NCBI GenBank assembly: GCA_000196815.1
Contig: FP929003.1
Location: forward strand, 1,449,501-1,513,500
Reading direction: 5' to 3'
Origin: Nitrospira defluvii
Lineage (GTDB): Bacteria; Nitrospirota; Nitrospiria; Nitrospirales; Nitrospiraceae
DNA length: 64,000 nt
The notes under the pieces were generated by a model. The model was not told where the DNA came from, made no database searches, and saw only the letters and a program-made list of their open reading frames with translations. Position numbers and translations under genes: made by a program. Below, piece by piece: positions 13,989-36,159 of the stretch. The first letter of the stretch is position 1; the number at the start of each line of letters is the position of its first letter.

Positions 13989-14082
13989 GAGAGTGCGCCT
14001 ATTCCTTTTTTGCCGGATTGCGTGTAAGAACGTGCATCCCCGACATCCACGGGGCGTATTCATTTAACACGGGAGGCTGGGT

Positions 14083-14301: not shown

Positions 14302-14820
14302 TCAACGCAACTTCTGCAGGACCCCCTCCGCGACGACGGCGTCCGGATCGCCTCCGACCATCAAGTCCTTGTCGCCGAAGTGCGAGGTCGAACTGGTGGT
14401 CACCCGCATCTTCAGACCGCCGGGAACGAGGGTATATTCGAAGAGGGCGGCTTCCTGCTGCTGGTTCAGATAGCCCTGGCTCGCCCGCTCGAAGGAGCCG
14501 CTGATCCCGACCGTCAATCGTCCCGGTCCTTTCTCTACACGTTCCACGACCATTCGTTGCACGCCGCCTCCCGGCGGAACGTATTCCACCGTTTGTCCGA
14601 CCTGCGACAGCTCCACTTGCCGCGTCAGCCCCTTGTTGTTGGTGTACGAGTAGAGGGGAAAGCCCTGCGGACTGAAGTCGATCTGCACTTCGGCCTGGCT
14701 GCCGTCGGCACTGCTGAGCAGGCCTTTCCATGCGCCGGTCAGGTCCGCCGCTTCAAGGGCGTCGGACATGACCAGCGCCATGACCATCACTCCCATGCCG
14801 AGAAGCCGCGTCATCTTCAT
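14302..14820 (-). CDS. Secreted protein of unknown function
   Basis: Start at ATG 14820 (MKMTRLLGMGVMVMALVMSD) with AGGAGG upstream gives a clear signal peptide cleaved near LEA-ADL. The mature part (about 150 residues) starts LTGAWKGLLSS and is predicted beta-rich, with pieces such as VQIDFSPQGFPLYSYTNNKG resembling small lipocalin-like or stress-related periplasmic proteins, though I cannot name a family. It is 28 bp downstream of the metacaspase-like gene on the same strand, so probably co-transcribed. Confidence 0.7.
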   Translation of the reverse strand: MKMTRLLGMGVMVMALVMSDALEAADLTGAWKGLLSSADGSQAEVQIDFSPQGFPLYSYTNNKGLTRQVELSQVGQTVEYVPPGGGVQRMVVERVEKGPGRLTVGISGSFERASQGYLNQQQEAALFEYTLVPGGLKMRVTTSSTSHFGDKDLMVGGDPDAVVAEGVLQKLR

Positions 14821-14848
14821 GACCCTACCCTCCTGTCGGTCATGGTCG

Positions 14849-15760: not shown

Positions 15761-16290
15761 ACGTACCTCCTTGGTCGGCGAGGATGGGTGAGTATAAGAC
15801 GTTCGATGATCAAAAGGATGGCGGTACGGTAATCGTTACGCGGGAATCTGTCAACGGACTGCGCCGGTAAATACTGGTATTTGAAACGATCGGCGGAAGA
15901 GGAACACCGCATCTTCCTCTGCATACTTCGCATCCTCCAGCCGGACGTACCGGCCCGCGCCCGATCGGCAGGAGTTACTCAAGCTCGTCCGGATAAGCCG
16001 CGTGTCTTCCCCCCTCCACGAGATACGCTTCACGAACGACGAGAGACGATTATTTTTTTCTCCTGTGACCCCGGATGTCACACCGCAGTGGTAGGGTGGC
16101 GGAGCTACGACGAAGAGCCGATGGCGTATGGCGGATGGTTTGAGGGGGAAGGTCCCATGAGAGATGTGTCACAAGGCACGCTTCACGAATAGAGAGGCCC
16201 TAGGCATTTCTCTAGGATGAAATGACAGATTCTTGCGCGGGACGGCTCTGTCGAATCTTGCTACAGTGCGTTGGCCGTTCAGAGGACAAC
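15761..16290. other. Gene-poor stretch, no supported gene
   Basis: A 530-bp gap. The only longish ORF (15881-16192, plus) lacks a ribosome-binding site and looks like noise. The word ACGAACGACGAGAGACGA at 16032 recurs in similar form near 36,450 and 47,405. The start of the metacaspase transcript should lie near 15,780-15,840, but no convincing promoter was picked. Confidence 0.4.
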
Positions 16291-16575
16291 ATGGCATGGA
16301 ATGAAGAAACGCAGATCAGATGCCGGTTTTCGTTCAAGTGCCCTCGATTGTGGCACCGCCTCCAGCCGACCGCAGAGGAAGGAGTCCGGCATTGTCATGA
16401 ATGCGATCGAGATGTATACCTCGCGCTGTCGGAAGCAGATGTGCGGCGATTCAGCGAGCAGGGCCGATGCATCGCGGTGCCTGTGGCGCAGCCTGATGGG
16501 GAGGCCCAATCTGATGAGCCCTGCTATGTGGTCGGCAGGGTGATGCCAGCTTATGACGGAGAGGAAGAAGAGTAA
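16291..16575 (+). CDS. Small protein with conserved Cys motif
   Basis: The 94-residue product from ATG 16291 (AGAGGA upstream) contains C11, C17, W21 and then GVRHCHECDRDVYLA with C35 and C38. This C-x5-C-x3-W...T...VRHC-x2-C pattern is shared by short uncharacterised bacterial proteins and probably binds a metal. The C-terminus is acidic (PAYDGEEEE). It lies upstream of the cas operon but looks unrelated to it. Confidence 0.65.
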   Translation: MAWNEETQIRCRFSFKCPRLWHRLQPTAEEGVRHCHECDRDVYLALSEADVRRFSEQGRCIAVPVAQPDGEAQSDEPCYVVGRVMPAYDGEEEE

Positions 16576-19696: not shown

Positions 19697-21242
19697 GTCA
19701 TGGATTCCGGTCAAACGACAGGATGGGACACGTGAAAAAGTCGCACCTTGGCGCATAACCGATTTCACGGAGGGCAAGAGCCCAATTGTTGCGATTGCCT
19801 CTCCGCGTCCTGATTTTGACGGCGCGCTTGTCCAGTTTCTAATTGGGCTACTGCAAACCACCTGCACCCCCAGTGAGAGTGGATGGTGGGATTGGCGAGA
19901 AAAACCGCCATCGCCGAAGACATTGTGCGAGCGCTTTGCGACAGTGGAACGAGCCTTCGAGATACAGGGCAAGACGGCATTCATGCAGGATTGGACATCT
20001 TCTGATTTGAGTAAGGAACTGAATGTTTCGGACCTCTTAATCGAAGCCCCTGGGGAGAAGACGCAAAAAGATAACACGGATCACTTCATTAAACGTGGGC
20101 GAGTAGAGCAGATGTGTTTGCTATGTGCGGCAACTGCACTTTTCACCCTCCAGACTAATGCCCCTTCTGGTGGCCAGGGACATCGGACTAGCCTACGTGG
20201 CGGAGGGCCGCTGTGTACGCTGGTGCTCGGTGATACCCTTTGGGAGACTTGTTGGCGAAATGTTTTGATGGACGCACGTTATTATGCCGCTGCTGACCCA
20301 GACAAGTTTGGTGAAGCAGACCGTTTTCCTTGGCTTGCGAGAACGCGCACGAGCGAACCGGCTTCACCAACAAAAACTACTGGACCTGTCGATGTTCATC
20401 CTGATCAACAATTCTGGGGTATGCCAAGGCGTATCCGACTACAGATTCGAGACCTTGAGAAGCCATCTTGCTGTGATCTTTGCGGGGCAGAGGCCAGGAA
20501 AGTGTGTCGCCACGCTGTTACGAAAAATTATGGCGTGAACTATGAAGGCTTTGCACACCCCTTAAGTCCGCATTATGTGAAAGACGGTGTCCCTAATCCG
20601 GTGCATCCACAACCTGGCGGTGTCGGCTATCGACATTGGCTTGGGCTTGTGGAAAACAGCATGGACGGAAACCTTGAGCGTCGGCCTGCCAAGGTCATCG
20701 AACAGTTCCGTTCTGTAGTACGAGAAGACGCGCGACTATGGGCATTTGGTTTCGATATGGACAATATGAAGGCTCGTTGTTGGTATGACGCCATTATGCC
20801 GATCCTTGCCGTACCGAGCGAAATGCATGAGGTATTCAAAGGACAGGTGGAACGGCTGGTTCGTGGGGCTAGTTGGGTTGCTCAGATCCTGCGCTGGCGA
20901 ATCAAGGATGTTTTGCTTGCGCAAGACGATAATCGTGGCGATCTCTCCTTTATTCAGAACCATTTCTGGGCTTCAACGGAATCAACATTTTACGAACACA
21001 TTCGGCATTTGCGGGACATCTTATCTATGTCGAAAGGAGAGGTAGCTGTGCTGGAAAGCTGGCATGCAGCTCTCCGTGTGGCAGCATTCTCCGTGTTTGA
21101 CCACTATGCTCAAGTTGGGGATTTCGATGGCGCTGATCCAAGACGGATAGCGAAAGCCCGTAATGACCTAAAGAAGGCGCTCAATGATAAGAAACTGCGC
21201 CAACTCCTTGGACTCTCTCAGCCCGTTCATCAAAAATCCTGA
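19680..21242 (+). CDS. cas8e: Cascade large subunit Cas8e (Cse1/CasA)
   Basis: PAM-recognising large subunit of the type I-E surveillance complex. It opens NLIYESWIPVKRQDG as Cse1 proteins do and includes LVQFLIGLLQTT, the zinc-site-like CCDLCGAEARKVC stretch (around residue 265), FAHPLSPHYVKDG and the C-terminal four-helix region. It is 520 residues, normal for Cse1. ATG 19680 is taken as the start because the preceding in-frame GTG adds only one residue. It overlaps cas3 and is followed after 18 bp by cse2. Confidence 0.95.
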   Translation: MNLIYESWIPVKRQDGTREKVAPWRITDFTEGKSPIVAIASPRPDFDGALVQFLIGLLQTTCTPSESGWWDWREKPPSPKTLCERFATVERAFEIQGKTAFMQDWTSSDLSKELNVSDLLIEAPGEKTQKDNTDHFIKRGRVEQMCLLCAATALFTLQTNAPSGGQGHRTSLRGGGPLCTLVLGDTLWETCWRNVLMDARYYAAADPDKFGEADRFPWLARTRTSEPASPTKTTGPVDVHPDQQFWGMPRRIRLQIRDLEKPSCCDLCGAEARKVCRHAVTKNYGVNYEGFAHPLSPHYVKDGVPNPVHPQPGGVGYRHWLGLVENSMDGNLERRPAKVIEQFRSVVREDARLWAFGFDMDNMKARCWYDAIMPILAVPSEMHEVFKGQVERLVRGASWVAQILRWRIKDVLLAQDDNRGDLSFIQNHFWASTESTFYEHIRHLRDILSMSKGEVAVLESWHAALRVAAFSVFDHYAQVGDFDGADPRRIAKARNDLKKALNDKKLRQLLGLSQPVHQKS

Positions 21243-21260
21243 TTTCATGAGGAGATGTTC

Positions 21261-21806
21261 ATGAGCCACACAACGAAACCAGACAATCCCTTTCCCCAAG
21301 GCAAATCCGACCATCCGTCCTTTAATGTTCTCAAGATGTGGTGGCAGGCACTGGAGTCAAACCGAGGCGAACGTGCCGCCCTGCGTCGGGCGGCCAGCCT
21401 CACCGAGGTGATGCTGAGCCCGGCTTTTCACCGGCTGCTCCATTCTTTACAGCGGGAAGGGTATGGAGTGGCGGAGTACCGTTATCCTAAGCTCGCTGCT
21501 ATCGCCGGATTGGCGGCACGGGTCAAGACGGAAACATCCGAGACGCTTGCTACCCGCATGGGCAACCCCAAGAGCGGAGGCGATAAAGCTGCCATGTCTG
21601 ACTTGCGGGTGCGGCGTGTGCTCGCCTGCGACGAAGTAGAGGAGCTGTATACTCTATTGCGACGAGCACTTGCCTTGCTTGGCGATCAGGCGAACTTGTC
21701 AGACCTTGCTGCGACACTCTGGCACTGGTCACCGATGGACGAAAAGCGCCCAAACGATCCGCGTCGTCGAATGGCCTACGATTACTACGCTGCGACACCA
21801 CTGTAA
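21261..21806 (+). CDS. cse2: Cascade small subunit Cse2 (CasB/Cas11e)
   Basis: Helical small subunit that dimerises along the Cascade belly and stabilises the R-loop. The sequence shows MWWQALESNRGERAALRRA and PAFHRLLHSL, then the VRRVLACDEVEELYTLLRRAL segment typical of Cse2, and a DYYAAT-type end. A GAGGAG motif just before 21255 favours ATG 21261 (MSHTTKPDN) over 21255. It is 181 residues, as expected, and fits the gene order cas8e-cse2-cas7e. Confidence 0.93.
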   Translation: MSHTTKPDNPFPQGKSDHPSFNVLKMWWQALESNRGERAALRRAASLTEVMLSPAFHRLLHSLQREGYGVAEYRYPKLAAIAGLAARVKTETSETLATRMGNPKSGGDKAAMSDLRVRRVLACDEVEELYTLLRRALALLGDQANLSDLAATLWHWSPMDEKRPNDPRRRMAYDYYAATPL

Positions 21807-21837
21807 TTAAATCGGTATTTAACGGAGGGAATGCACG

Positions 21838-23034
21838 ATGACAACTTTTCTGCAATTGCATCTCTTAACCAGCTACCCGCCCGCTTGCCTCAATCGTGAT
21901 GACCTCAACAGGCCGAAGACAGCGATGATGGGAGGTGTGCCGAGACTGCGGGTGTCGTCCCAGAGCCTCAAGCGCACGTGGCGTATTTCGGAGGTCTTCC
22001 ATGAAAAGGTCAATGAGCAAATGGGCATACGCTCTAAGGAGCTTGGCCTTCGCATCAAGGACGCCTTATTGACCGGGGTTGCCTTGACTGACCTGTTGAA
22101 CCTCGGCGTATCGAGAACTGAGTCGGATGGCAAAGTATCCGAGAAGAACGCGTCGGAATGGGCATGGATGATCGCAGGGGAATTTGTGGACAAGAAAAGC
22201 AAGGGTGGTGATGGAGAAACTGAGGACGAGGAATCGAAGGATAAGGGCAAGAAAAAAACAAAGAAATCCAACGTCAGCAAGGAAACGCTCAAGAGCGAAC
22301 AGATTGTCTTTTATTCGCAAAAGGAGATTGAGGCTCTGGTCATGCTGATTCAGAGTTTGCGCGAGAGCGGCAAGGCACCCTCTGCGGAGCAACTTAGTGC
22401 CATCAAGGCGAAAGAGGCTCAGGGCACTGCGGACTTGGCCTTATTTGGGAGAATGCTTGCGTCGAGTCCAGATTTCAACGTCGAAGCCGCCTGTCAGGTC
22501 GCCCACGCCATCACTGTCCACCGTGCTGCTGTGGAGGACGACTTCTTTACTGCAGTGGATGATCTCAACACCCACGAGGAAAATGCTGGTTCTGCGCATA
22601 TGGGTGAACAGGGCTTTGGAGCGGGGCTGTTTTATAGCTACGTGTGCATAGACTGCGATTTGTTGAGGGAAAATTTGGGCGGCGATGCTGGGTTGACGGA
22701 GAGCGCAATCAGAGCCTTAGTTGAAGCTGCTGCCACAGTCGCCCCCACCGGGAAGCAAAATAGCTTCGCTAACCGGGCATGGGCACCCTACGTGCTTGCC
22801 GAAAAAGGAAACCGTCAGCCGCGAGGGCTCTCATTGGCATTCATGAAACCGGTCAACGAATACGGTGAAGGTATGCTCGTCAATGCCGTATCGGCGCTCG
22901 ACACGATGCGCACGAACCTGGATAAGGTGTATCACAATGGTCAACCATTACCGAGTAAGAGTATTAACGCGCTGAAAGGTGAAGGCGACTTCCAAGTGCT
23001 GCTTAACTTTGCCGCTGGGAACGGAGGTGTGTAA
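21838..23034 (+). CDS. cas7e: Cascade backbone Cas7e (Cse4/CasC)
   Basis: Forms the six-copy RNA-binding backbone of Cascade. It starts FLQLHLLTSYPPACLNRDD and has GVPRLRVSSQSLKRTWR, the classical Cas7e region. Residues about 115-150 form a highly charged Lys/Glu/Asp-rich insertion (KKSKGGDGETEDEESKDK and onwards) that lengthens the protein to 398 residues against about 360 in E. coli. The C-terminal half (TVAPTGKQNSFANRAWAPYV) is well conserved. Its TAA overlaps the cas5e ATG by one base. Confidence 0.95.
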   Translation: MTTFLQLHLLTSYPPACLNRDDLNRPKTAMMGGVPRLRVSSQSLKRTWRISEVFHEKVNEQMGIRSKELGLRIKDALLTGVALTDLLNLGVSRTESDGKVSEKNASEWAWMIAGEFVDKKSKGGDGETEDEESKDKGKKKTKKSNVSKETLKSEQIVFYSQKEIEALVMLIQSLRESGKAPSAEQLSAIKAKEAQGTADLALFGRMLASSPDFNVEAACQVAHAITVHRAAVEDDFFTAVDDLNTHEENAGSAHMGEQGFGAGLFYSYVCIDCDLLRENLGGDAGLTESAIRALVEAAATVAPTGKQNSFANRAWAPYVLAEKGNRQPRGLSLAFMKPVNEYGEGMLVNAVSALDTMRTNLDKVYHNGQPLPSKSINALKGEGDFQVLLNFAAGNGGV

Positions 23035-23834
23035 TGCACGACTACCTCGTGTTTCAGCTGTACGGGCCGATAGCAGCGTGGGGTGACATTGCGGTAGGAG
23101 AGACGCGGCCCTCAACAATGACGCCGAGTAAATCTGCTGTGGTCGGGCTGGTAGCTGCCGCACTAGGGTTACGGCGGCCGGATACTGCTCAGACTGAAGC
23201 ACAACGCTCTGAATGGGAGTTGGATCACCTCGCTTTAGCAGATGGTTATGGTATGGCGATCAAAGTGGATGCCGTTGGTGTACCGCTCACTGATTATCAC
23301 ACTGTGCAAGTGCCCTCTTCCGGAACTGGCCGGAACCGCCAGTTCTTTGCTACACGTCGGGATGAATTGAATCGCGGCCCTAAAAGCGATCTCAATACAA
23401 TCCTTTCCCGCCGAGAGTATCGACAAGACGTCTATTATGCCATTGCGCTATGGGCCCGATCACAGGCCCCACATACGTTGCGTGAATTACGTCAGGCCTT
23501 ACTGGAACCTCGTTTTGTCCTCTATCTGGGTCGCAAGTCCTGCCCCCTTGGGCTCCCACTTCACCCAGAGATCAAGCAAGGGGAAACGATAGAAGCGGTA
23601 TTGGCCAACCTGTCTATTGAAAATGTTCTGTCGCAGTTGGTCGAAGCTGGTGGTGGAAGCGGAAGGCGTAAGAGTGGCCAGGGAATCCAGCAGGATTTGC
23701 CTTTGCTTGTGTGGGATAGCGATGCCGAAACTGGTTTATCCCCGGAACAGACCATCACCAGACGAGACGCCTCAACCTCTCGCCGGCGATGGCAGTTCGC
23801 AACACGAGAAGAACACCAAGCTTATCTCAGGTAG
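23034..23834 (+). CDS. cas5e: Cascade subunit Cas5e (CasD)
   Basis: Binds the 5' handle of the crRNA. The sequence starts DYLVFQLYGPIAAWGDIAVG and carries RPSTMTPSKSAVVGLVAAALG, the thumb-forming segment of Cas5e; the C-terminal region has FVLYLGRKSCPLGLPLHP. It is 266 residues. The start is fixed by the TAATG overlap with cas7e. The stop is 10 bp before cas6e. Confidence 0.95.
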   Translation: MHDYLVFQLYGPIAAWGDIAVGETRPSTMTPSKSAVVGLVAAALGLRRPDTAQTEAQRSEWELDHLALADGYGMAIKVDAVGVPLTDYHTVQVPSSGTGRNRQFFATRRDELNRGPKSDLNTILSRREYRQDVYYAIALWARSQAPHTLRELRQALLEPRFVLYLGRKSCPLGLPLHPEIKQGETIEAVLANLSIENVLSQLVEAGGGSGRRKSGQGIQQDLPLLVWDSDAETGLSPEQTITRRDASTSRRRWQFATREEHQAYLR

Positions 23835-23844
23835 GAAGGTTAGC

Positions 23845-24543
23845 ATGGAAATGTCTGCAAATTGGCTTTCTCGTATCTCGCTCAGAGGGGATGTTGGCTG
23901 TAAACAATTGGTTGGAATGGGAGAGCTTGACCTGTACGGCCAACATCGAGCGTTATGGAAGCTGTTCACCGTGGCACCAGAAGACCGCACAGAACGAGCA
24001 GAATTCCTTTTTCGCGCGGAACGTAAAGGATCGGTGCCGGTATTTTATGTGCTCTCCCGCCAACAGCCTATAGATCGTGCTGGTTTGTGGCACATTGAGA
24101 GCAAGCCATATCGGCCAGTTCTTAATGAGGGCGATCGTCTTGCTTTTAAGTTGCGTGTAAACCCGGTTGTAACTCGCAGGACCGAGGTGAATAAGCGCAG
24201 GAAGCGCCATGATGTGGTGATGGATGCAAAGTGTCAGTTGAATTGGAATGCTCTTCCCACGGATCAGCGTCCAGCGCTAGCGGATATCGTTCACAAGGCT
24301 GGTGTGACTTGGCTTCAGGCACGTGCGGAACGTCTTGGATGCAGCTTTCTCGAAGACTCAATCAGAGTTGATGGTTACCAGACTTGGCGCCAATCAGGTC
24401 TCAAAGGGATTGAGTTGTCCACTCTCGATTTTGACGGCATTCTGGCTATTACAGATCCTCATCGCTTTAGTGCTGCGCTAGTAGAAGGTGTCGGCCCCGC
24501 CAAAGGCTTTGGCTGTGGACTGTTGCTGGTCCGTCGTCTGTGA
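23845..24543 (+). CDS. cas6e: CRISPR RNA endonuclease Cas6e (CasE)
   Basis: Cleaves the repeat hairpin to make crRNAs. ATG 23845 is preceded by AGGAAGG and gives 232 residues. GQHRALWKLF (His34) is the catalytic-His segment of Cas6e. The C-terminal GVGPAKGFGCGLLLVRRL is the Gly-rich loop and terminal strand diagnostic of the Cas6/RAMP fold. The longer frame from 23617 runs inside cas5e and is not real. The crRNA repeat it would cut has a 6-bp CCCCGC/GTGGGG stem. Confidence 0.94.
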   Translation: MEMSANWLSRISLRGDVGCKQLVGMGELDLYGQHRALWKLFTVAPEDRTERAEFLFRAERKGSVPVFYVLSRQQPIDRAGLWHIESKPYRPVLNEGDRLAFKLRVNPVVTRRTEVNKRRKRHDVVMDAKCQLNWNALPTDQRPALADIVHKAGVTWLQARAERLGCSFLEDSIRVDGYQTWRQSGLKGIELSTLDFDGILAITDPHRFSAALVEGVGPAKGFGCGLLLVRRL

Positions 24544-24567
24544 TGTGGGTGGTCTTGGAGCGACTGC

Positions 24568-25783
<1,216 letters not shown>

Positions 25784-25860
25784 GGCTCCACAGAGTGAAA
25801 TTGAGCGGTAGGTTTTAGGGACAAGAAATTGTCCTGCTACATCAATCTCTTGTAGGAAGT
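25784..25860 (+). promoter_or_regulatory. CRISPR leader with IHF-like site
   Basis: The 77 bases between the cas2 stop and the first repeat. ATCAATCTCTTG at 25841-25852 matches the IHF consensus core (ATCAA-N4-TTR), the position used by IHF for leader-proximal integration in type I-E systems. GGACAA-GAAA-TTGTCC (25819-25834) forms a short hairpin. The diverged repeat lies at the far end of the array, consistent with this being the leader side. Confidence 0.7.
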
Positions 25861-27601
25861 GTGTTCCCCGCGCGAGTGGGGATGAACCGGAGGATACCCA
25901 GATGGCGAGAACACTACTCACGTGTTCCCCGCGCGAGTGGGGATGAACCGGAGATGTCGGTTTTAATGCGCGTCGTCACCGTGTGTTCCCCGCGCGAGTG
26001 GGGATGAACCGCAGGGGTCGAGGTATCCGAGCCGGACCAATCCGTGTTCCCCGCGCGAGTGGGGATGAACCGCTGGTAGTCGCTGGCGAGATCCCGAAGG
26101 TTAGGTGTTCCCCGCGCGAGTGGGGATGAACCGTTGTCTGTGATGAATACACATCCGATAGGAGTGTGTTCCCCGCGCGAGTGGGGATGAACCGGTCATT
26201 GATTTTGCAGGTGCCACGTGGGAATTGTGTTCCCCGCGCGAGTGGGGATGAACCGTCACAGATGTAGATGGTTTGTGAGGCGGTGAGGTGTTCCCCGCGC
26301 GAGTGGGGATGAACCGCCAGACAGGAAATCTCTAGTGGATTCACTGTCGTGTTCCCCGCGCGAGTGGGGATGAACCGTACCTCCTTCTTGCCCGGAACGT
26401 CCACGCCACGGTGTTCCCCGCGCGAGTGGGGATGAACCGCAATTTCAGGATACGGAACCTTAATCAAGCGAGTGTTCCCCGCGCGAGTGGGGATGAACCG
26501 ACGGGGGCGCCGCCGCGAATATCGCGACGCTCGTGTTCCCCGCGCGAGTGGGGATGAACCGCGGCATGTGGGAGTTGAACGCCCGCCGATTCGCGTGTTC
26601 CCCGCGCGAGTGGGGATGAACCGGCTACGTCCGGGTTCCGATCTATTGCGTATCAGTGTTCCCCGCGCGAGTGGGGATGAACCGAAATAGCATGTTCTCT
26701 CTCGCCACAGCAGAAAGTGTTCCCCGCGCGAGTGGGGATGAACCGCCATAGAAAAAGAGACCGGGAAACCGCTGGACGTGTTCCCCGCGCGAGTGGGGAT
26801 GAACCGAATTTGTAGGACTTCGGGTTGACGTTGAGCACGTGTTCCCCGCGCGAGTGGGGATGAACCGATGACGGAGGGCCATTTGAATATCCCGTATATG
26901 TGTTCCCCGCGCGAGTGGGGATGAACCGGAAACGGTTCTTCCGCGTACCCCTTCGCCTTTGTGTTCCCCGCGCGAGTGGGGATGAACCGGGCGAGACGGA
27001 ATCGGAACCGTCGTCCGTGGTGTGTTCCCCGCGCGAGTGGGGATGAACCGAGCGGGACGCATGGGGTTGCGGCTGGCAGCATGTGTTCCCCGCGCGAGTG
27101 GGGATGAACCGAACTGATGCGCGTGCCGACTTCTGATCTCGTGCGTGTTCCCCGCGCGAGTGGGGATGAACCGCGCGAATGCGGTACTGTGCAAATGGGT
27201 GCCTGTGTGTTCCCCGCGCGAGTGGGGATGAACCGGAAGAGCAGTTTCTCTCTGAGGGCGATGCTGTGTGTTCCCCGCGCGAGTGGGGATGAACCGCAAC
27301 TTCGCCGGATCCTCGTCTTGGGTGACGCGTGTTCCCCGCGCGAGTGGGGATGAACCGACCGGTAGGGCCTGCTCCGGAGCCCACCGTTTGTGTTCCCCGC
27401 GCGAGTGGGGATGAACCGGCTAGCCGTAAATGAGTTGACATACGGGGTGTGTGTGCCCCGCGCGAGTGGGGATGAACCGCCCCCAGAAGAGCCGCGTCTG
27501 TGGCGCGAAGAGTGTTCCCCGCGCGAGTGGGGATGAACCGAGTCCTTTCGGGTTGTTGGTTATACAGGAATCGTGTTCCCCGCGCGAGTGGGGATGAACC
27601 G
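25861..27601 (+). CRISPR. Type I-E CRISPR array, 29 repeats and 28 spacers
   Basis: The 29-nt repeat begins GTGTT, continues with the stem CCCCGC, tetraloop GCGA and stem GTGGGG, and ends ATGAACCG. Twenty-nine copies start at 25861, 25922, 25983 and so on up to 27573. Period is 61 bp, with four spacers of 33 nt (after repeats 9, 12, 21 and 22) and the rest 32 nt. All repeats are identical except number 27 (27451), which has T to G at the fifth base. Spacers all look different from one another. Orientation follows the cas genes, with the leader at 25784-25860. A thirtieth repeat occurs at 28206. Confidence 0.98.
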
Positions 27602-28205
27602 CTTCTTGCCAGTCCCCTTCTGAACATCAATGACGATATTCGACAGGGTCTTTGAGGGCCCTCCAAGAATGGGGGCAACAGGAATGCGTGGGCGCGTGGG
27701 CAGTGGTTTCTTGGCCGCCTGATCCACGGCATCGAGGAAGGCGTTAGCCACCTCCTGTCCTTGCCGCTCCAGATCGGTGAGATGCTTCAGGGAAAGGCGC
27801 TCTCGCCTTGGGGGCGACACGGCTGGAATGGATTCGGGGGCGTCTCGCTGCGGAGAGCCGAAATCTGTAGGGGGTGCCTCTGAGGTGGAGGAAGCCTGAG
27901 TCGAATCAGGCCGGTCTGCTACGGCACTGTCTTCAGGCCGGGAAAAGCCTTTTGAAGATAGGCGACGTTCTCTCTGCTGACTCGACGCAGTTCGTCGAGT
28001 TCGGAGGGCGTCAGCATCTCGGAAGTGTCCGAGGTAGTTGGCCTCTGAGGCGGTGAGGGCTGCGGGATCGACTCCGAATGTCTCTCTGATGGCATCGCCA
28101 AACCTAGTTTCGAGCAGTCGTACAAGCGTGCGTGACGGCGTCAGTATCCCACCGCGAGACGCATTTGTCAAAGTCACGACGTCGACCACCTGTCCGCCGT
28201 GGCTC
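27602..28205 (-). pseudogene. 604-bp internal gene fragment lying between two intact CRISPR repeats
   Basis: The interval between repeat 29 and the isolated repeat 30 is 604 bp instead of 32. One minus-strand frame stays open from one repeat to the other, without a start or stop of its own; it reads through into both repeats. The translation includes RTLVRLLETRFGDAIRETFG near one end, a Ser/Pro/Arg-rich middle and HLTDLERQGQEVANAFLDAV near the other, so it looks like an internal piece of a real coding sequence. I do not recognise the protein. A second minus frame (27919-28125) also has protein-like sequence, so a frameshifted gene cannot be excluded. Confidence 0.6.
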
Positions 28206-28234
28206 GTGTTCCCCGCGCGAGTGGGGATGAACCG
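28206..28234 (+). CRISPR. Isolated thirtieth CRISPR repeat
   Basis: A perfect copy of the 29-nt array repeat in the same orientation, 604 bp beyond the end of repeat 29. No further repeat follows at the 61-bp period; the sequence after it looks like coding DNA. Confidence 0.95.
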
Positions 28235-28379
28235 GAGTCATTGGCTGATGATCTTAAAGCCGCATTTTTGGATATGGGAGGCGATGCGGTTACTCCTGAA
28301 TGGCTTAGCGAGATCGCATCAAGCCTCGCTAGTGATAAGAAGCTTGCATATGGTTTTATGCTGCAGTGGAAGGCGAAAG
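28235..28379 (+). pseudogene. Start-less coding fragment abutting the last repeat
   Basis: Immediately after repeat 30 one plus frame reads ESLADDLKAAFLDMGGDAV, then TPEWLSEIASSLASDKKL and AYGFMLQWKAKAG with no start codon of its own. It is less GC-rich than the surroundings. The similarity to a genuine protein appears to end near 28375, where the toxin remnant begins in another frame. Source unknown. Confidence 0.45.
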
Positions 28380-28440
28380 CCGGGTCATCTATCGAGTCAT
28401 GCATCGTGGGAAGCGTATCGCTGGAGAGGAGAAGCCATGA
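28370..28440 (+). pseudogene. C-terminal remnant of a RelE/ParE-like toxin gene
   Basis: In the frame ending at TGA 28438-28440 the translation is GESRVIYRVMHRGKRIAGEE-KP. The YRV-x-H-x-GKRI pattern is typical of the last strand and tail of RelE/ParE-type toxins. The frame is closed by TAA at 28336, so at most about 33 codons remain of the roughly 90 expected. It overlaps the antitoxin start by ATGA, as in toxin-first TA operons. The 5' part has been replaced by the fragment next to the CRISPR repeat. Confidence 0.55.
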
Positions 28441-29004: not shown

Positions 29005-29135
29005 CCTAGCCCGCATTATTCATGAGCACTTCTGCTGCAATCGCCGATTCACTGCTACGACGGGCCTTCGGCCGGCGGGCTCGCCACGCGACTCGGCGCT
29101 TTCGCGACGAACCGTCATGAATAATGCGGGCTAGG
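29005..29135. mobile_element. 131-bp MITE-like element with perfect 21-bp inverted ends
   Basis: Left end CCTAGCCCGCATTATTCATG(A) at 29005-29025 is exactly repeated in inverted form at 29115-29135. CTAG is present at both ends and may be a duplicated target site or part of the ends. The interior is GC-rich, holds GGGCC-TTC-GGCC hairpins and has no ORF. Size and structure fit a non-autonomous transposon; the parent insertion sequence is not in the window. The right end supplies the stop codon of hipB (29131-29133). Confidence 0.75.
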
Positions 29136-29331
29136 CCATTCCGAGGCATCTGAAAATCTTCAACGCCGATTCCAGCGTAATGCTCGTTCGTTGCTGCTCA
29201 AACGCATTCACGGTCGGCCCGCTGACGCCCGCGAGGACGGCCAATGTCTTTTGCGTCAATTTCTGTTCCTTGCGCCGCTTTACGGCTTCTTCGACAAGGC
29301 TTTGCCAATCAAGGCGAAGGTTCCGTTCCAT
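29131..29331 (-). CDS. hipB: HipB-like helix-turn-helix antitoxin
   Basis: The 66-residue XRE-family DNA-binding protein from ATG 29331: WQSLVEEAVKRRKEQKLTQK, TLAVLAGVSGPTVNAFEQQR and TSITLESALKIFRCLGMA. It neutralises HipA and represses the operon in known systems. The TAG stop lies in the right inverted repeat of the 131-bp element, so the original C-terminus may have been changed by that insertion. It starts 52 bp inside the 3' end of hipA, i.e. antitoxin second, the reverse of E. coli hipBA. Confidence 0.8.
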   Translation of the reverse strand: MERNLRLDWQSLVEEAVKRRKEQKLTQKTLAVLAGVSGPTVNAFEQQRTSITLESALKIFRCLGMA

Positions 29332-30485
29332 CTTTTTCCCATGAAGGTACTGATGGCATCCCGCAATTCCGCGGGGCCCGTTGTGCATTCGGCAATGGCG
29401 TTCCTGGCCGCTGTCTGCCGCTTTTCAAGTTGGCCGGCGGCCATGGCAATGGCCTGCTTCGATAACCCGAACTCTTCACCCAAACGGATGAGCGTTCGTG
29501 GCTTCATCTCACCGATGGGAATGTGCGCGCTGCCGCCTATGGATAACGCGATGGTGTTGTACCCGTATAACGTCGCCGATACCGCGTCATAGGCTGGTGT
29601 CAGGCGCAGTCCGGCCTCGGTGTGAAACATCGCGAAATTTTTCAGGTGCATATCGGTATTCCCAAGGAGAACGCCGGCAAGAATGCGCAAGTAGAGCCGG
29701 TAGATCTCGGCCGGCAGGCAACCGGGCGTCTGCCGGATGAAATCCGGCATGCTTTTGTGACTGCCTTCGTATTTGGCGTGGGACGGATAGCCGAGCAGCT
29801 GATTGAATTCTTCGAAATGAATGCGTTGTCCGTCGTCGGTTCGGTCGAAGCGTGTGATGATCAGGGCCGGCTCTTCGAATCCGGCAACGTGGCCCATGCG
29901 CAGATCGACAATGTCGTCACCGGGCAGCAACGCCTGCAGCGCCTTCGTGGTCAGATATTCGTTGGCCGTCAGGTCGCCGTGCCGCGACGAGGGAAACTTG
30001 GCGATATGGGTGCTGAGTTCATCCGTTCGCGCGGGACGGAATTGTCCGTCCCGGCGGACCAGGGCCAGTTTCGGCTGAATGCCGGAGAGCGACGCTCTCC
30101 CCGACATGACGGCGATATCCATCGGATCGTCCGGTCGGGCGGCGTCCCGGCGTTCTGGATCGGGATCGATGATGGAGACAGCGCCCGCGCAATCCTGGCC
30201 GAAGGCCAGCAGCAGCTCGAAGCGCGAGACACGACGTTTTCCCAACAGCCGCGTCTGTGCTTCCTCGAGCCAGCCCTCGGCCACCAGATTGTCAAAAAAC
30301 GGCGGTAGTCCGGACTGGCTGATAATGGTGTCCGTCCTCAAGGGCAGCGTATGGGCTATGGAGGGGTGGTGCCCCGCCAGATAATGTTCATCGTAGGTAA
30401 ACGAAATCCGTTCGCCCGGTTCCTGGCGCAGCACGCCCGCGAAGCGATCTTGATAATAGACATTGCCCCAGAGAAGGTTCGCCAT
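29280..30485 (-). CDS. hipA: HipA-family serine/threonine kinase toxin
   Basis: Toxin kinase of the HipA type (E. coli HipA phosphorylates GltX). Visible features: an N-terminal subdomain ending GLPPFFDNLVAEGWLEEAQ, the P-loop-like SLSGIQPKLAL (residues 132-141, with Ser134 at the autophosphorylation position), NTDMHLKNFAM (catalytic Asp278) and LTPAYDAVSA (metal-binding Asp300). Catalytic residues look intact over 401 residues. The start at ATG 30485 (MANLLWG) is chosen because a TATAAT box and a palindrome lie directly upstream. It overlaps hipB by 52 bp. Confidence 0.9.
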   Translation of the reverse strand: MANLLWGNVYYQDRFAGVLRQEPGERISFTYDEHYLAGHHPSIAHTLPLRTDTIISQSGLPPFFDNLVAEGWLEEAQTRLLGKRRVSRFELLLAFGQDCAGAVSIIDPDPERRDAARPDDPMDIAVMSGRASLSGIQPKLALVRRDGQFRPARTDELSTHIAKFPSSRHGDLTANEYLTTKALQALLPGDDIVDLRMGHVAGFEEPALIITRFDRTDDGQRIHFEEFNQLLGYPSHAKYEGSHKSMPDFIRQTPGCLPAEIYRLYLRILAGVLLGNTDMHLKNFAMFHTEAGLRLTPAYDAVSATLYGYNTIALSIGGSAHIPIGEMKPRTLIRLGEEFGLSKQAIAMAAGQLEKRQTAARNAIAECTTGPAELRDAISTFMGKRWNGTFALIGKALSKKP

Positions 30486-30519
30486 GGTAAGTTGAAGTTT
30501 ACCAGGATCTGAGATTATA
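30486..30519 (-). promoter_or_regulatory. Putative hipA promoter and operator
   Basis: On the minus strand a perfect TATAAT (-10) is at 30519-30514, followed by the imperfect palindrome GGTAAACTTCAACTTACC (30503-30486) ending at the hipA ATG. An operator between -10 box and start codon fits autoregulation by HipB. No good -35 box was found. Confidence 0.5.
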
Positions 30520-30635
30520 TCAATTGGTAAAATATAGCTGACCACAATTAGGCGCTATAAGCGATCATGGAAATTATAGTTTACTATCGCGCCCGGTCCT
30601 GCGAGGCGGACGGCATCATGCGGCTTGTGTTCGAG

Positions 30636-30654
30636 GTGTCCCCCGCGCGAGTGG
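30636..30654 (+). repeat. Decayed CRISPR-repeat remnant
   Basis: GTGTCCCCCGCGCGAGTGG matches the first 19 bases of the array repeat at 18 of 19 positions, same orientation, and then diverges. It is 2.4 kb past the last intact repeat and outside any gene. Confidence 0.6.
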
Positions 30655-30773
30655 CGAACAGGTACCTAGAGCCATCGGGGGCAGGCCAGGTGGGGAGGGT
30701 TGTAAGGGTGAGATGAGGCGTTCGGCAGAATGACCCAGGTTTGTATCGTCAGACGATCACGCTGCCTCAACCC

Positions 30774-30923
30774 TCACGGCTCCGCTTCTTCGATGGCTTC
30801 GACCGATTCTCTGAGTGCGGCGACGAACGCCTCCGGCGCGGCTAACGCCTGCTCCGTCAGTTGGAATTCAGACACCAACACACCGTCTTTATCCACCACG
30901 ATCAAACGATAGCCCTGTTTCAC
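30774..30923 (-). CDS. Small acidic hypothetical protein
   Basis: GTG at 30923 is preceded by AAAGGAGG at ideal spacing, giving 49 residues beginning VKQGYRLIVVDKDGVLVSEF and ending in an acidic helix (ALRESVEAIEEAEP). The longer ATG-initiated frame from 30977 ignores this site. No family is recognised; the fold looks like a short beta hairpin plus helix. Confidence 0.5.
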   Translation of the reverse strand: MKQGYRLIVVDKDGVLVSEFQLTEQALAAPEAFVAALRESVEAIEEAEP

Positions 30924-31123
30924 GACGCCTCCTTTCAAGACGAAGTCCGGCTGGTTCCGGATGCGAGAGAATGGCACGAATGTGCCGGGCCATCTTACAG
31001 GAAACCAGCCACCATGCGATCCGCCCCGGCTATAGGATGAATCTTAGGTTTTCTTCGAGCATTGCTGGTAGGATGAGGGGACGTTCCCGATTCATTCTGT
31101 CATCGAGAGAAAGGATACCCAGC

Positions 31124-32155
31124 TTGAATACAACTAAAGTCATGGCCGCATGTCTCGTGTTATCTCTGATCGGGGTGCCGACCGTTTCCTTCGCGAAGGC
31201 GCGGGGTGGATCGGGGGGAGGGTTCTCCAGCGGTTCACGCGGCAGTAGTTCCTCAGGCAGCATGGGCAGTCGCGGCTCGCGCACGTATCAGGACAATGGA
31301 GCCAAGCCGATCGAACAGTCGACGACCGCGCGGCCGTCCACAGCGCCACCCTCTTCTGTCGCATCGGGGCCGGCGGCTCGACCCGCGCCTGCCGCGCAGC
31401 CTTCGTGGATTCAGCGCAATCCCCTGCTGGCGGGTATCGCCGGCGGTCTGGCCGGATCATGGATCGGTCACATGCTATTCGGGGCGACCGACAGCAGCGC
31501 GCGCACGAACGAGGCGGGTGAGCAGGTCGGGGACAACGGTCAGGGCGGAGCGTCCGGCCCGAGCGGGATGTTCATGTTGCTGTTGCTCATGGGAGCGGGG
31601 GCTCTGTTTTTCTATCTGCGCTCGCGTAAGCCTGCGGTGGCGCCTGATTTCTCAGGCATCACGCGGAGCCGCGCGGTGAGTGGCTCACTGTTGGCAGACT
31701 CGCCCGTGTCGACGCTCCGAACGGCCACGATCGATAGCGAGATCACCTCAGCCGACAAGGCGGCCTTTCAGCAATCGCTGACTGACATCCAAACCGCCTG
31801 GGGCCAGCAGGATCTGTCCGCATTGCGTCGACTGGTGACGCCGGAGATGCTGGAGTATTTCAGTACCGGCCTGGCCGAACTGACCAGCCAGGATCAGGCG
31901 AACCGTGTGGAGGATGTGGTGCTGCTCCAAGCTGAAGTTCGGGAGTCGTGGGTTGAAAATACGGTGCAGTATGCGACGGTGAGCCTGCATTGGAGCGCCC
32001 GGGACTATACCGTTTCCTTGTCGAAGGCACCGGGCGATGCCGGGTATCTCATCGAGGGTAGTGCGGAGAAGCCGATCGAGACGACCGAAGTCTGGACCTT
32101 CATGCGCTATCAACACGGCAAGTGGTTGTTGTCTGCGATTCAGCAGGTCGCGTAA
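31124..32155 (+). CDS. Tim44-like domain membrane protein
   Basis: The start is probably TTG 31124 (AAAGGA eight bases upstream) giving the signal peptide MNTTKVMAACLVLSLIGVPT-VSFA; ATG 31142 is an alternative. After a Gly/Ser-rich stretch (KARGGSGGGFSSGSRGSSSS) and a low-complexity linker come a glycine-rich helix (LLAGIAGGLAGSWIGHMLFG) and a second membrane helix (GMFMLLLLMGAGALFFYLRS). Residues about 205-343 are a Tim44-like domain (AFQQSLTDIQTAWGQQDLSA, LRRLVTPEMLEYFSTGL, VWTFMRYQHGKWLLSAIQQV). Bacterial members of this type are of unclear function, probably at the inner membrane. Confidence 0.85.
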   Translation: MNTTKVMAACLVLSLIGVPTVSFAKARGGSGGGFSSGSRGSSSSGSMGSRGSRTYQDNGAKPIEQSTTARPSTAPPSSVASGPAARPAPAAQPSWIQRNPLLAGIAGGLAGSWIGHMLFGATDSSARTNEAGEQVGDNGQGGASGPSGMFMLLLLMGAGALFFYLRSRKPAVAPDFSGITRSRAVSGSLLADSPVSTLRTATIDSEITSADKAAFQQSLTDIQTAWGQQDLSALRRLVTPEMLEYFSTGLAELTSQDQANRVEDVVLLQAEVRESWVENTVQYATVSLHWSARDYTVSLSKAPGDAGYLIEGSAEKPIETTEVWTFMRYQHGKWLLSAIQQVA

Positions 32156-32523
32156 GATTCGGTCGAGCGGTCCCCGGTGGGGACAGCGTGAGAGAGTTGG
32201 ATACGGGGGCGGTCACGCGGGTGGCTGCCCCCGTTCTATTTTCTGCCGCACCGCTTGCTGGTCCGGTCGCACGACCTCCACGTGTTCGGCGTTGCGGGAT
32301 CGCTTCATGGTGACTTCACCTCTTCTTCGGCGAATTTTCATGATCGCCGTTGTACCTTCTCTTTGAACGTGGAGTGGGCGGCCGATTCGGCTGCCTGCAA
32401 GGCTCCCCCACAGCATACAGTCGTCACAGCGACCCTCGCTGCCCTGTCGATCGCTCGCCTCCGCCGCCGGACGCGAGGCTGAAGGGCACGTCTCACGCTG
32501 GACCGGACAAAGGGAAAAAGACC
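32156..32523. other. Intergenic stretch, possible tiny minus-strand ORF
   Basis: No confident gene. A minus-strand frame 32308-32213 (start MKRSRNAEHVEVVRPDQQ, 31 residues) has an AGGTG six bases from its ATG and may encode a small basic protein, but nothing else supports it. Confidence 0.3.
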
Positions 32524-33189
32524 ATGCGGATTGCTCATATCAGCCCGTTTCTGGAACAGGTTTCATCCGAGAGTCAGGACCCGCAGGGCAGGACGATTTT
32601 CCATTTGACGAAGCACTTGACCCGGCTGGGACATGACGTGAGGGTCTTTGCCAGTGGGGACAGCAGAACGGCTTGTGAGTTGGTCCCCGTGGCTCCCCTC
32701 GCCATGCGATCCTATCCTGCGCCGAAACGCCATCTTGCCGAAGCCTTGGCCATGCTGGCATTGGAGAAAGCGCTCGCCACACTGCCGTCTTTCGACCTCA
32801 TCCATCTTCACTCAGGATTGTCGTGTTTGCCCCTGATGCGTCGTAGCCCGATTCCGATCGTCGCGACCGTGTACGAGGCTCTGGACGCTCCCGAAGTGAT
32901 CGGGGTCTATCGTGAATTTAAAGAGTTGGCCTTGATCGCCACGTGCGCAGAGCAACTCACACAGGTGCCTGACTTGAATTGGCAAGCGGTCATTCCCTGC
33001 GTGGACCTGCTGCGGTGGCAGCAGGAGCCGCAGGCTGTGGAAAAGATCGTGCGCGCGCACGAGACGGTCTACGAATGGAGTACGATCGGGATGGGGCTCC
33101 CCGAACGCGTCGCTCCGCACTTGCGGTTCGTCACGAGCGCGAAGGCCAACGCTGCTCAGGAGCGCTCTATCGTCGCGTCGCCCTATTGA
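32524..33189 (+). CDS. GT4-type glycosyltransferase, N-terminal domain only
   Basis: The sequence RIAHISPFLEQVSSESQDPQ, with GRTIFHLTKHLTRLGHDVRVFASGD and FDLIHLHSGLSCLPLMRRSPIPIVATVY, is the acceptor-side Rossmann domain of GT-B glycosyltransferases of family 4. The donor-sugar-binding C-terminal domain with its E-x7-E motif is missing: after about 175 residues the sequence diverges and ends at residue 221. Either a truncated gene or a specialised single-domain protein. AAGGG precedes ATG 32524. The downstream 237 bp contain a hairpin (33197-33228). Confidence 0.65.
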   Translation: MRIAHISPFLEQVSSESQDPQGRTIFHLTKHLTRLGHDVRVFASGDSRTACELVPVAPLAMRSYPAPKRHLAEALAMLALEKALATLPSFDLIHLHSGLSCLPLMRRSPIPIVATVYEALDAPEVIGVYREFKELALIATCAEQLTQVPDLNWQAVIPCVDLLRWQQEPQAVEKIVRAHETVYEWSTIGMGLPERVAPHLRFVTSAKANAAQERSIVASPY

Positions 33190-33196
33190 TGACATC

Positions 33197-33228
33197 GGGC
33201 CGATGAGCCGCTGAACTCTCATCGGTCC
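33197..33228 (+). terminator. Weak terminator-like hairpin
   Basis: GGCCGATGAG pairs with CTCATCGGTCC (one bulge) around a 10-nt loop, just after the glycosyltransferase stop. There is no T-run, so it may only be an mRNA 3'-end structure. Confidence 0.3.
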
Positions 33229-33426
33229 GTCAGTAACATCTGCGTTCCCGATTCCAGCTTCCTGACGCCCGTTCACGCGTCCGCGCGTCTCCTCTTTCTC
33301 TCCCTCCTCGCTGATCGAATCGAGGCGGGCTCATGTATTAGTATGATGACGATAGGCCCGGCCACGGGAACATCGCAGGCTACTGATTTCTTCACCCTTC
33401 GATCGTTCGATGGAGCATGTATCGGT

Positions 33427-34110
33427 ATGCGCATTCTTCTCGTAGAAGATGATGCTGACCTGGCGCAATTCATCCGAAAGGGCTTGAAGGAAGAGCGCTA
33501 TGCGGTGGATGTCGCGTCCAACGGCGAGCAGGGGTTCGAGCTCGGCATCGCGAATCCGTACGATCTCATCATCCTGGACATCATGCTGCCAGTGCTCGAT
33601 GGCCTGTCACTGTGTCGTCGTTTGCGCAGCACAGGCGTGACGGCGCCGGTCTTGCTGTTGACCGCACGCGATACGGTGCAGGACAAGGTGTCAGGCTTAG
33701 ACTTGGGGGCCGATGATTATTTGACAAAGCCGTTTGCCTTCGCAGAACTCCTCGCGAGGGCGAGAGCCCTGTTGCGGCGGGGCGGGCCTCAACTGCAGGC
33801 CCGGCTGACGGCTGCCGACCTGGAGCTGGATCCGGCGACTCACCGGGTGTGCAGGGGCGGCAATGAAATCGCACTGACGAACAAGGAGTACGCGTTGCTC
33901 GAATTTCTCTTGCGGAACAAGAATCGTGTGCTGACCAGGACCGCCATCATCGAGCATGTGTGGGATATCAGTTATGACCCCATGACGAATATCGTGGATG
34001 CGCACATCCGGTCGTTGCGGGCGAAGATGGATCGCGACTTTTCCCCCGCGTTGATCACCACCGTGCGGGGGGCCGGCTATATGCTGGAAGATGAGGAAGC
34101 CGGACGATGA
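33427..34110 (+). CDS. OmpR/PhoB-family response regulator
   Basis: Receiver domain (1-115) with MRILLVEDDADLAQF (acid pair), LIILDIMLPVLDGL (phospho-Asp51) and LTKPFAF (Lys), followed by an OmpR winged helix (about 130-225) with LTNKEYALLEFLLRNKNRVL and IVDAHIRSLRAKMDR...TVRGAGYML. It resembles CusR/QseB-type regulators of heavy-metal or envelope stress, but the signal is not shown. The stop overlaps the kinase ATG (ATGA), so the pair is an operon. Confidence 0.93.
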   Translation: MRILLVEDDADLAQFIRKGLKEERYAVDVASNGEQGFELGIANPYDLIILDIMLPVLDGLSLCRRLRSTGVTAPVLLLTARDTVQDKVSGLDLGADDYLTKPFAFAELLARARALLRRGGPQLQARLTAADLELDPATHRVCRGGNEIALTNKEYALLEFLLRNKNRVLTRTAIIEHVWDISYDPMTNIVDAHIRSLRAKMDRDFSPALITTVRGAGYMLEDEEAGR

Positions 34111-35552
34111 ATTCGCTGGGACGCCTGATCCGCCGGACGGCGCTGATCCTGATGGGCGGGTTGCTCCTCGGGTTTTCGGCGTTGATCTATGTCGGCGGCG
34201 ACACGCTGTTGAGCCGCTATGTCGATGGGCGTCTGCTTGAACTTGCGGAAACATTGGGCCGCATTATCGAACAGCGTCCGGATGTGATTCGCGGGGCGGC
34301 TGACGAGCTGGTCGTCTTGGGGGAGAAGGGCCGCAGCCAGGAAGAGCAACATGAACTCCGGGAGGCCGCGCATAGCGTCCGGATCTTGTCGATCGACGGA
34401 CAACTGCTGTGGAAGGGGTCCGATGTGGTTCCTCGGCCTCCCGTGTCGGCCTCCCTCCTCGAACAGGTCAAGCAGGGCCAGACCGTCTTCGATATGGTGC
34501 AGCTGCGCGAGGGCTCCCCTGTGCGGCGCGTCTCGATCCCTGTGCCCAGGCGCGGCCAGGTCCGGTATATGTTGCAGGCGGAGGAGTCGCTTCACTTTTC
34601 GAAGGAAACCCTCAAGGGGCTCGCGATTCTGCTGGCGCTCGGGTCGGGCCTCGTCATCCTCGTGGCCTGGGCCGGCAGCGCATGGATCGCGCGAACGGTT
34701 CTGACGCCGATCGGTCTTTTGAGCCGGCGGGCGGAAACCATGTCGGAAGCCGACCTGGGCGAGCGATTGTCTCTCGATTCTCCGTTTCAAGAGTTCCACC
34801 GGTTGACACACACCTTTAACGCCATGATGGACCGGTTCCAGAAAAGCTGTGAGAGCCAGCGCCGGTTTGTCGATTACGCCGCCCACGAAATGCAGACGCC
34901 GCTGACCGTGTTGCAGGGGAACCTGGAAGTCACGCTTCAAAAGGCCAGATCCACGGAGGAATATCGTGAGGCGCTCATCGGGAACCTGGAACAGGTAGAG
35001 AAGCTGATCGCACTGGCTCGGTCGCTGCTCACGCTCACGAAGGTGACGGGCGATCGGCCTCCGCTGCACCTCGCTCCCGTCGAACTGGAACCCCTGCTTC
35101 AGGAGCTGATCATCGAGCTGAAGCTACTGGCCGATGACCGCCGGATCTCACTCGCCCTCGAGGTGGTGCCCGTGCCTACGATTTCGGCGGACGCGCAGTG
35201 GTTGAAACAGGCGTTGATCAATCTGCTGGATAATAGTCTGAAGTATACGCCGCCCGGCGGCTCGGTCACGGTTCGTCTTCGCCGTTCCGATGGATCGCTT
35301 GAGATTGCGGTCCGGGACACAGGCCCGGGAATCGAGGCGGAACATGTGCCGTTCCTCTTCGATCGGTTCTATCGGGCGGACAAGGCCAGGGCACGGGAGT
35401 CCGGAGGGACAGGCTTAGGGCTGGCTATTGTCAAGGGTATTGTCGAGGCGCACGGGGGCACGGTCGCCGTCGACACGCAGCCTGGAAAAGGGTCTGAATT
35501 TACGATCCGCTTGCCCCTTGGCCGCGCTCCTGAAGGCCATCCATCGAACTAA
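34107..35552 (+). CDS. Sensor histidine kinase, HAMP-type
   Basis: Membrane sensor paired with the regulator just upstream. First helix at about 8-30, a periplasmic domain of about 130 residues, second helix at about 170-192 (LKGLAILLALGSGLVILVAW), then HAMP (about 193-245), HisKA with FVDYAAHEMQTPLTVLQGN (H box), and a HATPase with LINLLDNSLKYTPPGG (N box), AVRDTGPGIEAE (G1) and GGTGLGLAIVKGIVEAHGG (G2). The H box has EMQTP instead of ELRTP, common in CusS-like kinases. Full length 481 residues; its end overlaps the convergent gene at 35549 by 4 bp. Confidence 0.93.
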   Translation: MNSLGRLIRRTALILMGGLLLGFSALIYVGGDTLLSRYVDGRLLELAETLGRIIEQRPDVIRGAADELVVLGEKGRSQEEQHELREAAHSVRILSIDGQLLWKGSDVVPRPPVSASLLEQVKQGQTVFDMVQLREGSPVRRVSIPVPRRGQVRYMLQAEESLHFSKETLKGLAILLALGSGLVILVAWAGSAWIARTVLTPIGLLSRRAETMSEADLGERLSLDSPFQEFHRLTHTFNAMMDRFQKSCESQRRFVDYAAHEMQTPLTVLQGNLEVTLQKARSTEEYREALIGNLEQVEKLIALARSLLTLTKVTGDRPPLHLAPVELEPLLQELIIELKLLADDRRISLALEVVPVPTISADAQWLKQALINLLDNSLKYTPPGGSVTVRLRRSDGSLEIAVRDTGPGIEAEHVPFLFDRFYRADKARARESGGTGLGLAIVKGIVEAHGGTVAVDTQPGKGSEFTIRLPLGRAPEGHPSN

Positions 35553-35869
35553 CCCGTCTGCCGTTTTTTTCTCCCCTTCGCCGGTCGTGTCACCGCCACA
35601 TCCCCGGCCGACAGCAGGGTCTGCGCCTGGGTGATCGCATCCAGCAGGGCGTTTCGTTCCTTGTCCAGCTCTTGCACGTAGGGCACGCCGTTCACGAACT
35701 CTTCCGCTGCCGTCATCAAGGTATGCATCGCCGCGGCCATTCCGTTCGGCGCAGGCGTCTGTGATGCCGCGGCCCTGCGGGACAGGGCGCTTCTTCTCCG
35801 AGGCCCGACATAGAGCTGCGGCGCTGTCGGGTTATCTTTTTCCAATTCCGGTCGTCTCGATCTCGCCAT
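35549..35869 (-). CDS. Hypothetical basic protein, 106 residues
   Basis: The start ATG 35869 has GGAGGA upstream. The N-terminal 40 residues and the last 15 are basic and probably disordered (LYVGPRRRSALSRR, PAKGRKKRQTG); the middle is one helix (AMHTLMTAAEEFVNGVPYVQ, ELDKERNALLDAITQAQTLL). No family recognised. It overlaps the histidine kinase gene by 4 bp, tail to tail. Confidence 0.6.
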   Translation of the reverse strand: MARSRRPELEKDNPTAPQLYVGPRRRSALSRRAAASQTPAPNGMAAAMHTLMTAAEEFVNGVPYVQELDKERNALLDAITQAQTLLSAGDVAVTRPAKGRKKRQTG

Positions 35870-36159
35870 TATTCCTCCAGGTCAGCGGGCACCGATGTGT
35901 GACGGGAACACTCTACTCGATCCTTGGTGGCGATTGCATCGGGGTAAAAGCTGAAGGGACGGGCGAACCGGAGGACTCGACAACCGGTTCTCGTCCACCG
36001 GCTGCCACGTCTCCAGGGAGAAGACCTGGAGAGTCCAGGGGTTCATCCAGTCCCGGAACTCAGCGTCGCAGGGTAGACATAAAGCAGGGATGTGTAAACA
36101 TGGAGAGTCAATCCAAACCAAAACGGATGTGCCCCGATCAGGAAAGGGAGGGAGCCACC

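Follow-up and report, generated by a model that had tools for sequence, protein, structure and literature searches.

A phage gene piece between two intact repeats of a Nitrospira defluvii type I-E CRISPR array and its possible origin by recombination at spacers

Introduction

How can an internal piece of a phage gene come to occupy the place of a spacer between two intact CRISPR repeats? The question is raised by a type I-E locus of Nitrospira defluvii, located in a stretch of 64,000 nucleotides (positions 1449501-1513500; hereafter the window, to which all coordinates refer unless stated otherwise) of a genome assembled as a single contig of 4,317,083 bp. The accounts of Nitrospira CRISPR-Cas systems that were found give only their presence and spacer number (PMC5767232).

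The locus and its array

The locus is assigned to type I-E by the cas gene set beside the array and by repeat and spacer lengths, which fit in 28 of the 29 intervals. Within the cas operon, cse1 through cas2 were called above the NCBIfam curated cut-off, and cas3 through the cas3_core and cas3_HD domain models. The main features are as follows:

16961-25783, plus strand: complete type I-E cas operon (cas3, cse1/cas8e, cse2, cas7e, cas5e, cas6e, cas1e, cas2e)
25784-25860, plus strand: probable leader, from the cas2 stop to repeat 1, placed by position
25861-27601, plus strand: regular array, repeats 1-29 with 28 spacers
27573-27601, plus strand: repeat 29, perfect, its 3' end adjoining the phage piece
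27602-28205, minus strand: phage polyvalent-protein gene, internal piece of 604 bp, open throughout, without a start or stop of its own
28206-28234, plus strand: repeat 30, perfect, terminal repeat of the array
28235-28400, plus strand: array trailer, a relic of type I-G cas3 that also occurs at the I-E array of genome G169, identified by sequence identity

The array consists of 30 repeats of 29 nt each (GTGTTCCCCGCGCGAGTGGGGATGAACCG), spanning 25861-28234; of the order's 197 genomes, 12 carry this repeat. Spacers in 28 of the 29 intervals measure 32 nt (24) or 33 nt (4), whereas the last interval, at 604 nt, falls outside the 32-33 nt of an ordinary I-E spacer. Repeat 27, one base off, is the sole variant among repeats 1-29. 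Repeats 29 and 30 are perfect, co-oriented copies exactly 604 nt apart, as the initial annotation had described, and since the cas genes lie to the left of the array, the long interval is at its distal, oldest end. Repeat 30 is the true end of the array and not a chance copy, because the trailer that follows it (73% amino acid identity with a Cas3g open reading frame of G108) also follows the terminal repeat of the I-E array in G169, with 89% nucleotide identity. The terminal repeat of G169 (GATGATCCG) itself resembles a hybrid between a repeat and cas3.

Identity of the 604-bp piece

A translated search of 27602-28205, which the initial annotation had suggested, returned phage proteins. Residues 2-82 of the insert match positions 158-241 of the 242 in the phage family phrog_22413 (E=1e-14), which is related in sequence to a phosphoribosyltransferase (PRTase)-like stretch, and residues 122-201 match the phage polyvalent protein of viral contig L016 (E=2e-11), a very large, DarB-like protein, in an alignment (7239-7478) that extends to the last codon before repeat 29. 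The piece thus contains the end of a PRTase-like domain, a linker and the start of the next domain. As judged from these matches, the 604 bp is a contiguous piece of a phage gene, 201 codons long and cut in mid-domain on both sides, which refines the earlier view of an internal coding piece lacking its own ends.

A minus-strand frame is open over the whole interval and both flanking repeats, as had been noted before, although openness by itself is unremarkable and weak as evidence: some frame is open in 3.7% of first-order shuffles and, elsewhere in this G+C-rich window, in 48% of 604-bp stretches. The coding nature of the insert is instead indicated by the phrog_22413 match, the polyvalent-protein match and the distribution of its divergence over codon positions, described below. 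The insert is present as a single copy in the genome. Searches of phages, plasmids and viral contigs at the DNA and protein levels yielded no close donor phage, and the N. defluvii array, when searched against phages, matched only other CRISPR arrays. No signs of an insertion sequence (IS) or prophage were found at the insert, whether transposase or integrase genes, terminal inverted repeats, att sites or a residual spacer; apart from the CRISPR repeat itself there is no direct duplication, in agreement with the previously reported lack of inverted ends and target duplication.

Two side observations may be added. A second minus-strand frame within 27602-28205 holds a small overlapping open reading frame (MLTPSELDEL...KTVP, then a stop) whose start and stop are kept in the homologue described below; the third-position bias falls there, and it may represent an overlapping phage gene. 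In addition, type I-G Csb2 (GSU0054) proteins encoded in L005 and L008 (genomes G057 and G028) are interrupted by a phosphoribosyltransferase-like domain, which is related to the PRTase domain of phages.

The same junction in a sister species

Among the Nitrospirota genomes searched, a strong homologue of the insert occurs only in G060, the metagenome-assembled genome (MAG) of Nitrospira sp. S2bin.17. Its chromosomal flanks are those of N. defluvii (93% and 88% identity on the right, 92-94% on the left), and it has a type I-G system where N. defluvii has I-E. In the direction of the window, the order in G060 is I-G array, one Y repeat, phage-gene piece, I-E repeat, 32-nt spacer, I-E repeat and flank, with the Y repeat (TAGCGCCCGTCCTTAGTGACGGGCGAGGATTGAAAC) representing a third kind that forms a full array at the same locus in G038. 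The G060 piece is 68% identical to the N. defluvii insert in amino acids, reaches further into the same phage gene, and passes into the I-E repeat at precisely the base where the N. defluvii insert does. Its other end is flush with the Y repeat, and homology to L016 reaches the last codon there too. The piece lacks two stretches that are present in L016, one of them lost out of frame, so that either it is decaying or its phage differed. The trailer of this MAG is unlike that of N. defluvii.

More generally, one locus with conserved flanks (window 1-16439 and 29125-36056) carries an I-E, an I-G and a Y-repeat array in three Nitrospira genomes (L014, L015, L048-L051), and its distal end retains relic repeats of other CRISPR kinds. 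Beyond the trailer, window 29005-29135 contains a perfect inverted repeat with arms of 21 nt (CCTAGCCCGCATTATTCATGA) separated by 89 nt. Parts of this element are found in many copies in Nitrospira genomes, in the manner of a dispersed REP or MITE-type repeat.

The shared junction bears directly on a further explanation, in which the interval is an artefact of the assembly or the library, or else what is left of a decayed prophage or IS that a random deletion brought next to the array. The assemblies of G060 and of two further genomes with oversized intervals, G118 and G161, are fragmented, another G118 array contains a scaffold gap, and the internal deletions of the G060 piece relative to L016 would be in keeping with decay. 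However, the N. defluvii genome is one contig, and misassembly is unlikely because an unrelated assembly, that of G060, shows the same junction between gene and repeat; for the same reason, neither an assembly collapse nor a chance copy of the repeat, both raised earlier as possible objections, can account for the arrangement. Moreover, there is no prophage or IS at the site, and a random deletion or insertion should have left between 0 and 32 nt of spacer by the repeats, whereas none is found at the borders checked against native homologues. An artefact or a randomly joined remnant is thus very improbable.

Borders and putative anchor spacers

In both N. defluvii and G060, the borders of the insert are flush with the repeats, and phage homology at the protein level continues to the last codon (within 0-3 nt). 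The outermost 32 nt on each side can be read as former spacers:

27602-27633, plus strand: putative anchor spacer A, directly adjoining repeat 29 at its 3' end, placed from the border
28171-28173, plus strand: AAG directly upstream of putative spacer B
28174-28205, plus strand: putative anchor spacer B (32 nt), directly adjoining repeat 30 at its 5' end

At spacer A, native gene sequence reaches the border by comparison with L016, and the protospacer-adjacent motif (PAM) of this spacer would sit in phage DNA absent from the N. defluvii array. The region of spacer B is identical at 28 of 32 nt in G060, with the same junction. In N. defluvii and G060 alike, AAG, the E. coli type I-E PAM, is separated from the shared border by exactly 32 nt, with the reservations that it may not be the PAM of this system, that its frequency within the insert, and hence its chance at a given place, is 1.5%, and that the two genomes are not independent. 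In viral contigs, no exact match was found to 22 nt of putative spacer A and no match to a 20-mer of spacer 1, and the spacers of nine related arrays gave only weak, chance-level matches against all fetched loci.

Divergence of the two inserts

Differences between the N. defluvii and G060 inserts are distributed over first, second and third codon positions as 49:28:98 (26%, 15% and 51%), and the gaps between them are multiples of three. A single inherited insertion would be expected to have diverged like host genes and evenly over codon positions, and 12 flanking host genes of the two species differ by 13.6% at third positions. A third-position difference of 51% versus 13.6%, combined with coding constraint, means that the alleles diverged as working genes before their hosts split, and presumably did so in phages; the codon-position pattern rules out vertical inheritance of one decaying insert. 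Given that divergence preceded the host split, the shared border must originate on the array side, which implies that phage DNA was captured twice at a single ancestral anchor or that a replacement occurred there.

The replacement variant deserves separate consideration. It holds that a single insertion of phage DNA in an ancestor, by whatever route, was inherited by both species, and that one allele was later overwritten by a related phage via homologous recombination. One founding event would then account for the shared right border, and the further reach of the G060 piece into the same gene would fit as well. On the other hand, an extra replacement step is required between alleles that are only 72% identical, the repeat-flush left borders (repeat 29 in one species, Y in the other) are unexplained, and the spacing of AAG at 32 nt is left to chance. 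An inherited insert with later replacement is accordingly regarded as improbable.

Recombination anchored in spacers

The reading that we tentatively prefer, with confidence a little short of even, is that phage DNA recombined with spacers of the array and replaced the stretch between two anchoring spacers. An ancestral array would have held spacer B, derived from the phage gene and adjoining the distal repeat, and spacer A would have been gained later, as expected of primed adaptation, from the strand and gene that had supplied B. Phage DNA entering the cell may then have recombined with the array at the two spacer/protospacer identities of about 32 bp, through host RecA or a phage annealing recombinase active on such short homology. 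Such a double exchange would swap the array units lying between A and B, repeats as well as spacers, for the phage DNA between the protospacers, and repeat-flush borders would result. In G060, a like exchange may have linked the I-E spacer B to a spacer from an array built on a different repeat, and the simplest account of the shared border would be that ancestral spacer B served as an anchor twice.

This reading is favoured because the two species share the junction while their phage sequences are separately diverged alleles; the AAG at 32 nt from that border, the flush left borders and the two repeat types around the G060 piece also speak for it. Several observations count against it: no donor phage was found, two other long inserts (see below) lack AAG at the corresponding place, and identity between the two inserts declines smoothly away from their common end and shows no distinct drop where spacer B stops. 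In addition, recombination via 32-bp homologies is rare, and the comparison genome G060 is a MAG with a different trailer. As for consequences, the insert is probably a by-product that erased some immunity, and a function of the fragment itself is unlikely. The crRNA precursor predicted from the array would carry 32 anti-phage nucleotides after repeat 29, followed by a 3' part that is far too long.

Oversized intervals in other arrays

Two other I-E arrays contain oversized intervals flush with perfect repeats. In G118, a 1185-bp interval comprises two overlapping gene pieces, for which a search revealed no donor. In G161, a 6581-bp interval (C57:9235-15815, L084) is bounded by a truncated transposase gene and a truncated ugd gene, each of which, by comparison with native homologues, breaks off precisely at a repeat; the ugd gene of this 6.6-kb foreign segment shares about 80% identity with its counterpart in another genus of the family. 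These flush inserts indicate that the phenomenon recurs. The triplet 32 nt inside the right border is CGG in G118 and AAT in G161, and most homologues show CAG as the native triplet on the left side of the G161 insert; because AAG is absent there, the weight of the AAG spacing in N. defluvii is lowered. A 1289-bp interval in G038 was considered as a further case and rejected, as it is an IS3-type element with spacer remnants, and by contrast with that interval an IS insertion was ruled out for the 604-bp interval.

G118 and G161 give no support to a strict two-spacer model and are as well explained by integration of long DNA. In that alternative, Cas1-Cas2 together with host repair integrated untrimmed phage DNA, hundreds of base pairs long, with the repeat duplicated as for a normal spacer. 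Perfect identical repeats and flush borders are the outcome of integrase chemistry, inserts of 1185 and 6581 bp show them in two other I-E arrays, and AAG at 32 nt from one end could mark a normally processed end. Integration of this kind predicts a single repeat type on both sides, which is seen in N. defluvii, G118 and G161, but G060 has two, an arrangement not producible by one Cas1-Cas2 integration. It also needs the same end point twice, or else the vertical inheritance excluded by the codon-position divergence, and Cas1-Cas2 acts as a ruler whose normal product is 32-33 nt. Long-DNA integration is therefore unlikely for N. defluvii, if still a possibility to be taken seriously.

Taken together, spacer-anchored recombination is the best explanation among the readings considered, and long integration by Cas1-Cas2 is its main rival. 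Of the three mechanisms offered by the initial annotation, recombination that replaced spacers hence fits best and long integration persists as a serious competitor, whereas simple end-joining of foreign DNA leaves the repeat-exact borders unexplained.

A spacer is by design identical to its protospacer, so that an array offers the elements it targets a series of short homology arms, and entry and rewriting of the array by phage DNA through them is an obvious possibility. It is conceivable, though doubtful, that phages use the arrays directed against them as recombination partners, so that the DNA between two protospacers replaces parts of an array or joins arrays of different CRISPR types, and that recurrent spacer loss, kilobase inserts and array swaps at one Nitrospira locus have this common cause. 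If recombination at spacers does occur, phages may erase immunity, arrays may gain kilobase inserts and CRISPR-Cas loci may be exchanged. If long integration is correct, Cas1-Cas2 exceeds its ruler length by far, which would matter for the mechanism and for DNA-recording tools.

Comparison with known systems

A limited literature search found no documented case of phage DNA entering and rewriting arrays via spacers, and given that limit novelty of the mechanism is stated with caution. The closest published case found, a different event, is that of Streptococcus pyogenes MGAS315/SSI-1, where a prophage is integrated in the terminal repeat of CRISPR1 (PMC3089615). The likeness is that phage DNA parts the terminal repeat from the remaining CRISPR locus. 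In S. pyogenes, however, a whole prophage entered via its own att site and the repeat was split into a 14-bp piece and a chimaeric repeat (PMC3089615), whereas the N. defluvii array has two whole repeats with nothing but an internal gene piece between them. The IS within a CRISPR spacer of G038 likewise produces an oversized interval between perfect repeats, but transposase frames and a residual spacer remain there, and the N. defluvii insert has neither. With regard to phage polyvalent proteins (DarB-like, with InPase and PRTase domains; phrog_22413), the insert represents a 201-codon piece of such a gene without the gene ends. Finally, ordinary I-E spacer acquisition also places foreign DNA flush between identical repeats, with AAG 32 nt inside one border as here, but the N. 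defluvii interval differs from it in measuring 604 nt instead of 32-33 and in sharing its border with a sister species on two differently diverged phage sequences.
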